From positions 1-64,000 of the forward strand of contig SVEC01000016.1 in the NCBI GenBank assembly GCA_015057555.1: a DNA stretch of 64,000 nt. Direction: 5' to 3'. Shown one piece after another: positions 12,839 through 45,933 of this stretch (its first letter is position 1; every line of letters begins with the position of its first letter). This DNA comes from Lachnospiraceae bacterium. GTDB taxonomy: Bacteria; Bacillota; Clostridia; Lachnospirales; Lachnospiraceae. The translations under genes were made by a program, and so were the position numbers. The notes under the pieces were generated by a model. The model was not told the origin of the DNA. It worked only from the letters and a program-made list of their open reading frames with translations, and made no database searches.

Positions 12839-13429
12839 ATGAGGATTTTGTTACTTGCAGATGAAGAGTCAAAATATTATTGGGATTTCTTTGAGAAAAG
12901 TAAGCTGGATGGGATAGACCTTATCATATCCTGTGGTGACCTTGCACCACAGTTTCTATCCTTCCTTGCTACATTTGCAAAGGTTCCAGTATTATATATT
13001 CATGGAAATCATGACTACTGTTACGATGAAACTCCACCAGAGGGTTGCATATGTGTAGATGATGATGTTTACATTTATGAGGGAGTTAGGATTATGGGCT
13101 TAGGTGGTTGCATGAGCTATAATTATGGTCCGTATCAGTTCACTCAAGAGGAGATGAGAAAGCGTGCTAAGAAGCTTAGACGCAAAATTAAGAAGGTTGG
13201 TGGTATAGATGTCCTCGTTACCCACGCCCCAGCTTATAAGCATAATGACAGTGAGGATCTGCCACATACTGGCTTTGAAGCATTTATAGAGATTATGGAT
13301 ACCTACAAGCCTAAGCTTTTCGCTCACGGCCATGTACACATAAATTATGGCAGAGATTTTAAGAGAGAGTCATATTATAATGAGACTAAGGTTATTAACG
13401 CCTTTGAGAAGTTTATAGTGGAGCTTTAG
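12839..13429 (+). CDS. Calcineurin-like metallophosphoesterase
   Basis: A 196-residue soluble protein with the ordered metal-binding motifs of the superfamily: an N-terminal LLLADEES variant of the DxH block, CGDLAP, GNHDYC, a VTHAPA block and the terminal HGHVHINYG. The first motif lacks the usual D-x-H, so the metal site may be modified. Substrate unknown. The stop codon overlaps by one base the first base of the structured repeat element at 13429-13560, which would form the 3' untranslated region. Likely co-transcribed with the BMP/ParB-like gene. Confidence 0.82.
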   Translation: MRILLLADEESKYYWDFFEKSKLDGIDLIISCGDLAPQFLSFLATFAKVPVLYIHGNHDYCYDETPPEGCICVDDDVYIYEGVRIMGLGGCMSYNYGPYQFTQEEMRKRAKKLRRKIKKVGGIDVLVTHAPAYKHNDSEDLPHTGFEAFIEIMDTYKPKLFAHGHVHINYGRDFKRESYYNETKVINAFEKFIVEL

Positions 13430-13560
13430 CAACGAGCTGTGCACACATAAAAAAACATACGCGCAAGTTTACTTGCATGCGTATGTTTTTTTATGTGTAT
13501 ACAGCGACTGCGGCGATGCCCACTCCACGCAAGCGTGGGGTGGGAGAGACAGCTCGTTGC
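13429..13560 (+). repeat. Structured repeat element, copy 1 (three-way-junction fold)
   Basis: GCAACGAGCTGT at the left end pairs perfectly with ACAGCTCGTTGC at the right end. Inside lie hairpin A (20-bp stem beginning ACACATAAAAAAACATACGC, capped by GCAAGT-TT-ACTTGC with a 2-nt bulge), a linker ending AGCGACTGCGGCG, and hairpin B (CCCACTCCACGC/GCGTGGGGTGGG). The T-rich TTATTTTT follows directly. A second copy on the opposite strand at 44941-45091 keeps the architecture with compensatory changes. Neither a transposase nor a clear target-site duplication is visible. It may act as a structured 3' UTR/terminator or be a palindromic mobile repeat. Confidence 0.85.
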
Positions 13561-13632
13561 TTATTTTTACCTACATCTTTTTTTCGGACATAGCTCCATA
13601 AATAGTCAATTTATATTCGTACATTTATATAG

Positions 13633-28232: not shown

Positions 28233-28472
28233 TGCTGTGACATTGATAGCGTGGAAGCGGAGGTTGCTACTTAAGTAGGTTTTTCGTGGAGCGAATGTCA
28301 ATTAAAGATAACTGGCGACAAGTCACTGTACCAAATACCATCCGTCATGGGGCGGAGATGACGTGTGAGAATCAGTAGATTGGAATGAGAAAATTTACGA
28401 CACACACGGGAAAGTTGTACAGTCACCACTTGTCGTACTACTAATAAGTGCGAAAAGGAGGCGGCTTTTTTT
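28233..28472 (+). promoter_or_regulatory. Long structured 5' leader of the S10 operon
   Basis: About 240 nt separate the promoter from rpsJ. CGACAAGT and ACTGTAC (about 28314-28329) can pair with GTACAGT and ACTTGTCG (about 28417-28436), enclosing hairpins such as CGTCAT/ATGACG (about 28343-28363). S10 operons in many bacteria are controlled by L4 binding the leader; autoregulation here is inferred from position and structure only. I see no obvious intrinsic terminator in the leader. Confidence 0.6.
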
Positions 28473-44763: not shown

Positions 44764-44994
44764 ATGAAAATAAATATCCGACAAGAGATATTTGACAGAT
44801 TTCCTAATACTTTCTTGTATAATGTAAGGTATATAAACCGTGATTTAGAACTGGAGGATTTTTATGGTATATCAATGGATATTACCCATGATGAATTAAT
44901 GTCTAAAATTGGGTGGCCTAATGCAAAGCATGGAACAAAAGCAACGAGCTATGCAGTCCAATCATACAAGCATGGGTTGCCCATGCTTGTATGA
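44764..44994 (+). pseudogene. Possible gene fragment running into the structured repeat
   Basis: A 76-codon frame. Roughly the first 59 codons (MKINIRQEIFDRFPNTFLYN and onward) look protein-like but match no family I know. The last 17 codons read through the left part of the repeat element (44941 onward). No SD precedes the ATG. It may be the 5' part of a gene disrupted at this point, or not coding at all. Confidence 0.3.
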
Positions 44995-45091
44995 TTGGCC
45001 CGCCGCAGTCGCTATATACACATAATAAAACACGCATACGTACAAGTGAACTTGTGTATGCGTGTTTTATTATGTGTGCATAGCTCGTTGC
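44941..45091 (-). repeat. Structured repeat element, copy 2 (opposite strand)
   Basis: Read on the minus strand it is collinear with copy 1: outer stem GCAACGAGCTATGCA with its exact 15-bp complement at the other end; hairpin A (long stem of CACATAATAAAACACGCATAC type, apex ACAAGT-TC-ACTTGT with a 2-nt bulge); linker TATAGCGACTGCGGCGGG; and hairpin B, a 19-bp stem CCAATCATACAAGCATGGG, with a different sequence and length from copy 1. It begins 5 nt after the stop codon of the FNT transporter and is followed on that strand by TTTTGTT. Confidence 0.87.
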
Positions 45092-45096
45092 TAAGG

Positions 45097-45933
45097 CTAG
45101 TACTCCTCTGCGATTTCAATATCCTCTTGCTCGTGGTCGGAATTGATAAATGGCGTTTTGGAAAGATAAGCAAGCCAGTATCCGGCTCCAACGCCCACAC
45201 CACCTATAAGGTTACCAAGTGTAACAGGGATTAGATTGTGGGTGATAAAATTGCTCCAGGTAAGCGTATCTGCTGGTATACCATATTCAACAGATGTAAA
45301 AAGTGCTGCCATACAAAAATACATATCAGCGATACAGTGTTCAAAACCACAAAGCACGAAGAGCATAACTGGCCAAAAGCTTATTAAAAGCTTTCCGGAA
45401 ACATCTTTAGATGCAAAAGCCATCCAAACCGCAATACAAACTAGAACGTTACATAGAATGCCCCTTATAAGAGCATCTTGGAAGTCCATACTAGTACGAA
45501 TAACACCGGAATTTATGACTGCTTCAGCCAAGGTCCCACCAAATAAATCTGGAACATGTCCATATGTAACCATAATTGATACAAATAGAGCTCCTATAAA
45601 ATTACCAGTGTACACGAAAAACCAATTTTTAAGCATCTTAAATACAGAGACCTTTTTCTCTAGTACTGAGATAATGATCAGATTATTTCCAGTGAAAAGC
45701 TCACTACCTGCTATAAGAACCATAGCCATACCAGCTGGGAATACTATGGCTGCTATAAGTCGTCCTGCAGAAGCAGTTTCCATAGTGGCTGTAGCTGTGG
45801 TAGCTGCAATACCTGCGAAGGATATAAATAACCCTGCAAAAAATCCTAAAAGAGTCATTTTGAATGCAGACATCATAGTTTTATGAATACCTATGTCCAC
45901 ATAGTTTTTTGCAATTTCCAAAGGGGAGTGCAT
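45097..45933 (-). CDS. Formate/nitrite transporter family (FNT) channel
   Basis: A 278-residue membrane protein with six predicted helices. The FNT signature appears as CGFEHCIADMYF, with GSELFTGNN near the second helix and GNLIGG in the last. FNT pentamers pass formate, nitrite or hydrosulfide; the substrate here is unknown, though formate is plausible in a fermenter. AGGAGG precedes the ATG. Transcribed alone on the minus strand, with the structured repeat as its 3' end. Confidence 0.92.
   Translation of the reverse strand: MHSPLEIAKNYVDIGIHKTMMSAFKMTLLGFFAGLFISFAGIAATTATATMETASAGRLIAAIVFPAGMAMVLIAGSELFTGNNLIIISVLEKKVSVFKMLKNWFFVYTGNFIGALFVSIMVTYGHVPDLFGGTLAEAVINSGVIRTSMDFQDALIRGILCNVLVCIAVWMAFASKDVSGKLLISFWPVMLFVLCGFEHCIADMYFCMAALFTSVEYGIPADTLTWSNFITHNLIPVTLGNLIGGVGVGAGYWLAYLSKTPFINSDHEQEDIEIAEEY

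Follow-up and report, generated by a model that had tools for sequence, protein, structure and literature searches.

The window analysed here is a 64,000-nt stretch of Lachnospiraceae DNA, which opens with the last part of a 23S rRNA gene and then six tRNA genes (1-767) and carries an S10-Clostridia ribosomal protein leader (RF03136) at 28244-28321. It also holds two copies of a structured element, each lying at the 3' end of a gene. The first copy begins inside the TAG stop codon of a metallophosphoesterase gene (12839-13429), the AG of the stop being the first two letters of the element, and the second begins 4 nt past the stop of a formate/nitrite transporter gene (45097-45933, minus strand; Pfam PF01226), in a flank that recurs in genomes G005, G010, G013 and G015. 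The features of the two copies, with matches to the covariance model R2 described below, are as follows.

13428..13561, plus strand: copy 1, whole core (R2 match, 112.2 bits, E 9.8e-27)
13428..13442, plus strand: copy 1, left arm of the outer stem (terminal inverted repeat)
13443..13498, plus strand: copy 1, hairpin A, from folding, with the form of an intrinsic terminator
13503..13515, plus strand: copy 1, linker AGCGACTGCGGCG
13519..13544, plus strand: copy 1, hairpin B (variable), from folding
13549..13561, plus strand: copy 1, right arm of the outer stem
44940..45092, minus strand: copy 2, whole core (R2 match, 126.7 bits, E 1.7e-30)
45018..45077, minus strand: copy 2, hairpin A, from folding and the R2 match
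45001..45013, minus strand: copy 2, linker
44958..44998, minus strand: copy 2, hairpin B of 19 bp, from folding
44921..44933, minus strand: probable remnant (CCATGCTTTGCAT) of a downstream repeat unit of copy 2

Hairpin A of copy 1 consists of an A-rich 5' arm, a GC-richer top with a 2-nt bulge and a T-rich 3' arm, and the linker AGCGACTGCGGCG that follows it corresponds to a mini-hairpin, GGCG..GCC, in most members of the family. The fold of copy 1 has an energy of -75.4 kcal/mol, with 0 of 200 shuffled sequences as stable (z -11.1), and that of copy 2 lies at z -15.1 relative to its shuffles, the two hairpins B being unlike each other in both sequence and length. The exact 13-nt linker occurs twice in the window, and at least two occurrences at up to 2 mismatches arose in 1 of 100 shuffles; this recurrence, the stability of the folds against shuffles and the covariation in a set of 52 copies exclude a chance origin of the copies. 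At five loci related to that of copy 2 (L006, L008, L009, L014, L020), one to at least three repeat units were counted by eye. The initial annotation had described a three-way junction at 13429..13560, whose outer stem and hairpins A and B are confirmed, but the core is one base wider on each side and the family form is four-way by virtue of the mini-hairpin. The paired differences it quoted between the two copies are present in both sequences. As for the parts it took to be unchanged, the bulge in hairpin A stays in place while its letters differ (AT in copy 1, AC in copy 2), and the linker is constant among close copies only, the usual form across the family being the mini-hairpin GGC(GAA or GACT)GCC.

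Further copies were collected by linker and by covariance model. Linker-based scans yielded 16 and 23 stretches, of which only the five loci just named carried the element, the remainder being taken as chance matches on the evidence of fold and flanks. A covariance model built from nine copies (R1) was searched in 37 genomes of the own genus and matched 28 of them at E<=1e-3, with many hits that were weak or merely reflected the palindrome on the antisense strand. On rescanning 73 loci, 19 weak, partial or antisense ones were removed, and 52 of the other 54 passed E<=4e-11 to give alignment A3 and the model R2. Two more alignments were made, A4 with 29 copies from other genera (28 high-scoring genomes) and A5 with 42 copies from four genomes. 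The covariance-model search of Lachnospiraceae genomes that the initial annotation had proposed, run with R2 at E<=1e-8, matched 167 of 299 family genomes, corresponding to 166 of 298 genera, and found no fewer than 11 copies in the own genome (G000, 27 contigs), a lower bound as the best 11 candidates per genome were scored. Among 299 genomes of the phylum, four matched, every one from Lachnospiraceae. A known Rfam RNA is excluded, in keeping with the earlier statement that the element was not recognised as a known RNA class: none of 4227 families reached its gathering threshold at either window copy, the best sub-threshold scores for copy 1 coming from microRNA models, and in 40 further whole loci only tRNA and 6S RNA were matched, never the element. 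A pattern scan of viral contigs returned three stretches, none of them matched by R2, and copy 1 found no match in phage records.

Copies from different genera are more alike within one genome (identity 0.52-0.88) than across genomes (0.42-0.50), whereas inside the own genus the corresponding figures are 0.56-0.75 and 0.62-0.75. Several members of the genus have sites in common, among them the copy-2 site (five genomes) and the end of a groEL-like gene (several genomes).

The element measures about 130-155 bp and, in its family form, combines an outer stem, hairpin A, the mini-hairpin and the variable hairpin B. The outer stem has 15 bp with a conserved inner part (GAGCCATGC/GCATGGCTC), and by eye it runs further out in some loci, as far as the gene or tRNA end (L066, L157). 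At two loci (L066 in G027 and L067 in G034), the sequence 3' of the element is complementary to the tail of a tRNA-Thr gene, with one mismatch in L067, so that the outer stem seems, on this complementarity, to continue into the tRNA gene's 3' end. Hairpin A comprises about 22-24 plus 5 bp, a small loop (GTTTAC, GCTTGC or similar) and mostly a 2-nt bulge on the 3' side, and is followed by TATA, the mini-hairpin CGGCGA(A..)GCCG and then hairpin B, which varies in sequence and length. The mini-hairpin is weak in both window copies, and its cells are paired in 95.7% of cases in other genera and 74.6% in the own genus.

Pairing in these helices is maintained despite extensive change. In A3, 94.2% of 2701 cells are paired, against 31-47% in slid controls, both sides have changed in 55 of 56 pairs, and doubly changed cells number 666 against 157 in shuffles; A4 gives 92.9% paired and 522 doubly changed cells against 144, both alignments consisting of better-scoring matches aligned with the model and hence tilted towards structure. 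A5, with 40 distinct rows, has 88.2% of its cells paired and 547 doubly changed against 179, hairpin B being weakest at 78.9%. The orthologous copies behind the 6S RNA in G000 and G005 show 13 double Watson-Crick changes, together with 3 in which a G-U pair arose or was lost and 4 that made or removed a mismatch. The covariation is overwhelming, also between most orthologous copies, and the initial claim of a conserved, covarying structured element is thus borne out in the 52-copy and 29-copy alignments, although copies lacking paired changes do occur in two orthologous pairs, L096 and L105 (0 double, 5 one-sided changes) and L110 and L115 (0 double, 3 one-sided).

Whether the pairing acts in RNA or in DNA differs between the parts of the element. 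In the outer stem, G-T and A-C mismatches are nearly equal in number (26 vs 23 in A3, 9 vs 6 in A4), as expected for DNA inverted repeats. G-T predominates in hairpin A (25 vs 5 in A3, 29 vs 6 in A4, 54 vs 11 summed) and in hairpin B (17 vs 4, 10 vs 1, 27 vs 5 summed), in alignments fitted to a model and for that reason favouring G-T. When 81 copies were folded without the alignment pairing, the sense strand of hairpin A folded better in 37, the antisense in 18 and both equally in 26 (p=1e-4), a bias that fits a terminator. The outer stem gave 38, 21 and 22 (p=0.08), and hairpin B with the linker gave 70, 10 and 1, the whole element folding better on the sense strand in 67 of the 81. Double changes between orthologues are often transversions, with no G-U intermediate. 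The near-equal mismatch counts of the outer stem and these transversions mean that paired changes alone are no proof of RNA selection; of the earlier conclusion that the structure is selected, the covariation therefore stands and the selection on RNA does not follow from it. The element is read as DNA inverted arms surrounding an RNA-level terminator. The sense bias of hairpin B, which may be due in part to purine-rich loops, is unaccounted for by this reading and speaks for a regulatory role.

Hairpin A matches the form of an intrinsic (Rho-independent) terminator and, judged by its composition, is a predicted terminator. In 116 of 120 copies A outnumbers T in its outer 5' arm, as bidirectional use would call for, and its 3' arm has at least six T within 8 nt in 104, these copies being related rather than independent and 19 of them forming one near-identical group. 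A consensus terminator scanner flagged hairpin A of copy 1 on the minus strand only and copy 2 not at all; it also passed over all five plain terminator hairpins in relatives, the likely cause being that its rule does not recognise a T tract paired inside the stem, and it gave no guidance on this form.

The placement of the copies points to transcript ends. With open reading frames of at least 70 codons called mechanically and no random placement control, a same-strand stop lies within 250 nt upstream in 64 of 81 copies and at -8 to +16 nt in 52, and in 15 a convergent frame either overlaps the right end or stops no more than 11 nt from it. Seven of the 81 copies lie 0-8 nt behind tRNA genes, and two lie 5 nt behind 6S RNA. 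Among the 11 copies of the own genome, seven (copies 1 and 2, L045, L047, L049, L337 and L338) begin -5 to +6 nt from a same-strand stop codon and one (L046) lies 3' of the 6S RNA; by eye, L090 has a TATAAT box upstream and a start codon downstream, and L339 and L340 have no stop codon, RNA or box neighbour on the sense side.

At two sites, the element stands where relatives carry plain hairpins. The gene in front of copy 1 was found in all 37 genomes of the genus, and of 30 loci read only that of the own genome has the element behind it; in G005, G013 and G015, a hairpin with A and T tracts lies just past the stop. The 6S RNA was found in 36 of 37 genomes, with the element behind it in G000 and G005 only, again of 30 loci read, and in G013 and G015 a plain A-hairpin-T terminator occupies exactly the element's position. 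Each of the five plain hairpins forms a single hairpin on folding, and none of 200 shuffles reached its stability (z -4.3 to -7.4). The remaining genomes of the genus mostly differ in what lies behind the gene and are uninformative on replacement.

The clearest signs of mobility come from one genome of another genus, G061, which has 34 matches at E<=1e-6. Twenty copies were compared, with a mean identity of 0.875 that includes one divergent copy (L216); the other 19 are near-identical, 131-132 bp long plus GTAAC/GTTAC ends, some of them one base off. They have the hallmarks of a MITE, namely terminal inverted repeats (GTAACTGTTCAGAGCC), no open reading frame and dispersed near-identical copies, and they sit in both orientations relative to genes. 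Target duplications of 8 bp are exact in 13 of the 19, agree at 7 of 8 positions in five and at 6 of 8 in one; agreement at 7 or more positions thus occurs in 18 of 19, against 8% in mispaired controls. One version appears to have jumped recently within this genome. No target duplication was detected in 20 own-clade copies, 12 G331 copies and 52 others at lengths of 2-10 and end offsets of -2 to 25, and for that reason transposition with 8-bp duplication is not claimed for all members, and the G061 MITE may be a derived case. The element was found in no existing MITE family, as in no Rfam family, yet one genus holds it in MITE form. This form found no match in plasmid records and two in phage records, both without annotation.

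Five G061 end pairs about 80 bp apart (C22:83796-83876, C22:89801-89881, C67:118525-118605, C8:67927-68005 and C3:10020-10099) are apparently shorter derivatives of the MITE. MITE ends also enclose 3.5 kb on contig C15 (L256, 341-3863) with a PF09820 AAA-ATPase-like gene and, by eye, an adenylation-type gene; this region was rejected as an autonomous partner, as its flanks, by eye, lack an 8-bp duplication and no relative of the ATPase gene was found among the other loci compared. The search for a mobilising enzyme covered two families, IS66 (PF03050) and Y1 (PF01797), and found none. IS66 was set aside, PF03050 being present in 0 of 4 genomes (G061, G000, G005, G013) and the terminal inverted repeats sharing only GTAA by eye.

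Taken together, these observations are best explained by a small element interspersed in Lachnospiraceae genomes, which carries a transcription terminator and serves its host as one, a reading to which we assign a probability of about 0.6. Hairpin A would be an intrinsic terminator that the element itself brings along, enclosed by its long inverted arms, and the host would use the element at the ends of genes, tRNAs and 6S RNA, with RNA polymerase stopping at hairpin A. Copies without duplications would also have come by insertion, either long ago or by a duplication-free route, and the exact pairing would owe its preservation in part to replication, with one arm copied from the other, and in part to selection for a functioning terminator. 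In favour of this explanation count the architecture, the covariation, the form of hairpin A and the placement at stop codons and RNA ends, together with the number of copies and of family genomes matched, the two sites where relatives have plain hairpins, the 8-bp duplications of G061 and the greater likeness within genomes seen in comparisons between genera. Against it stand the lack of target duplications outside G061 and of any excess of within-genome likeness inside the own genus, the failure to find a mobilising enzyme in the two families searched, and the scanner calls on the two window copies. Moreover, if the RNA ends at hairpin A, the 3' half of the element lies beyond that end, yet it is conserved, sense-biased and repeated, and an unconditional terminator behind a -10 box would silence the downstream gene.

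The latter point concerns copies preceded by TATAAT, which are the main reason for retaining a conditional terminator or attenuator as an alternative. Here the four-way junction would regulate in cis as RNA, its 3' half determining whether polymerase gets past hairpin A, and would control read-through behind genes and the downstream gene in leaders. TATAAT lies within 26 nt upstream in 16 of 120 copies, 10 of them among the 12 G331 copies read, and within 24 nt in 15 of 120 against 15 of 1190 control windows taken 60-300 nt upstream and not matched for coding content. Copies directly behind a -10 box are L236-L238, L240 and L242-L247 in G331, as well as L133, L141 and L249 in other genomes and L090 in the own genome; two further box copies, L224 and L225, are G061 MITE insertions, and the box of L251 is 19 nt away. 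In 14 of the 16, a ribosome-binding-like site and an open frame follow within 320 nt, a step counted without a control, and the box copies are possible 5' leaders. Among the genes that follow them are a phosphofructokinase-like, a glyA-like and an sbcD-like one, to go by their N-terminal residues only. The element would then have two exact placements, behind stop codons and RNA ends and behind -10 boxes, which suits conditional control, as do the conserved mini-hairpin and the better sense folding of the whole element and of hairpin B with the linker. However, the neighbouring genes seen are unrelated (6S RNA, tRNAs, a formate transporter, a phosphoesterase and a groEL-looking gene), the outer stem has no clear sense bias, the G061 insertions face both ways relative to genes and the sequence of hairpin B is not conserved, and we regard this reading as rather unlikely.

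About as doubtful, and if anything slightly more so, is a broader proposal in which the element is a family-wide, unnamed RNA or DNA module that marks transcript boundaries, lying either immediately past stop codons, tRNAs and 6S RNA or, behind the -10 box, at the very start of transcripts, its terminator conditional on the conserved 3' half and its spread duplication-free and aimed at terminators. If true, a mobile regulatory terminator would be replacing host terminators across Lachnospiraceae and would have been captured as a MITE in one genus.

A new mobile element guided by single strands or hairpins, similar to REP/RAYT or attC systems, moving without duplication and targeting terminators, is improbable. 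It would agree with the lack of duplications outside G061, with the constant bulge near the tip of hairpin A and with the GAA/GTA loops of hairpin B and the mini-hairpin, which we take to resemble stable DNA loops. It would also suit the tandem copies formed by the 3' part only: of 80 loci, 38 have partial copies within 400 nt downstream and one has them upstream, this single case being part of a tandem full-length array. In 58 of the 65 downstream pieces, the end falls no more than 10 nt from the 3' end of the element; the starts lie at positions 16-75, about hairpin A, in 15 pieces and beyond it in 50, and never in the left arm. One array, L142 in G247, holds two full-length tandem copies and further partial ones. 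This polarity led to the consideration of retro-type (5'-truncated) insertion, which was rejected, as the units of some arrays share one start and the L094 array repeats about 50 bp of host flank with microhomology. Ordinary slippage would suffice for single arrays such as L094, and this weakens the case for hairpin guidance, although the one-sidedness is not accounted for by it. The Y1 transposase PF01797 is, moreover, absent from G000, G005, G010 and G013 and represented by a 36-position fragment in G015, these being the five most copy-rich genomes of the genus; it occurs in 8 of the 37 genus genomes and does not track copy number. REP/RAYT is rejected on these grounds, and nothing links the element to that system, in line with the initial annotation, which did not recognise it as a REP family.

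Least probable is that the copies are ordinary, vertically inherited long terminators kept by quasi-palindrome correction and spread by slow duplication or gene conversion, for although several sites are common within the genus, paired changes between orthologues are often transversions, most genomes show no duplications and there is no within-genome homogeneity inside the genus, independent terminators would not be expected to share similar arms, mini-hairpin, loop and bulge at unrelated loci and across genera, and the lineage-specific presence at the 6S and copy-1 sites and the MITE form in G061 speak against it.

If the preferred reading of an interspersed terminator element holds, an unlisted structured element is present in over half of the genera sampled from a major family of the gut and rumen; it would terminate tRNA, 6S RNA and many protein-gene transcripts and could displace ordinary terminators. 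Sites at which close relatives have either the element or a plain hairpin would offer natural pairs for asking whether interspersed repeats rewire transcript ends. The element is also a caution for RNA discovery, since strong covariation in palindromic DNA may arise without RNA selection.

Several known systems resemble the element in part. REP and REPIN sequences are palindromic extragenic repeats with a bulged hairpin, as is the element, but they go with the RAYT (Y1) transposase, which four of the five copy-rich genomes lack. IS66-type ends (terminal inverted repeats beginning GTAA, 8-bp duplications) are like the GTAAC..GTTAC ends and 8-bp duplications of the G061 form, and 30 IS66 loci read elsewhere in the family gave 7 candidate repeat pairs starting GTAA, two of them with exact 8-bp duplications; by eye, the likeness is limited to GTAA, and PF03050 is absent from G061. 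In the portions of the literature available, no description was recognised as the element, which may be among the 3161 candidates of PMC8040213. The comparison with SPRITE, BOX, RUP and BrickBuilt is one of descriptions. BrickBuilt, a MITE of Porphyromonas gingivalis, shares inverted ends and tandem repeats inside, but belongs to another species, has a 23-nt unit and, in the part of its description seen (PMC4596501), has one copy discussed near, not as, a terminator. BOX (boxA-boxB-boxC), as far as the excerpt of PMC3049150 describes it, is likewise a modular folded intergenic repeat with an inner module that expands in tandem to varying number; it repeats a middle module between constant ends, whereas the element repeats its 3' part and right arm downstream of an intact copy. 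A review of prokaryotic MITEs (PMC10969869) deems MITE-formed terminators conceivable, citing SPRITE, and its accessible text contains none of the terms clostridi, firmicutes, is66, stop codon or lachno. SPRITE itself, a small interspersed pneumococcal repeat that, once transcribed, would resemble a long Rho-independent terminator in its fold, is described in the same excerpt of PMC3049150 as enriched near gene 3' ends, where it is proposed to have been co-opted as a terminator, and it resembles the element in being interspersed, terminator-like in fold and located at gene 3' ends. As described there, however, SPRITE consists of an 18-bp duplex with a U-rich tract behind it, whereas the Lachnospiraceae element has four helices, long inverted arms and a second hairpin, and occurs in many genera, where stop codons and RNA ends are its usual sites.
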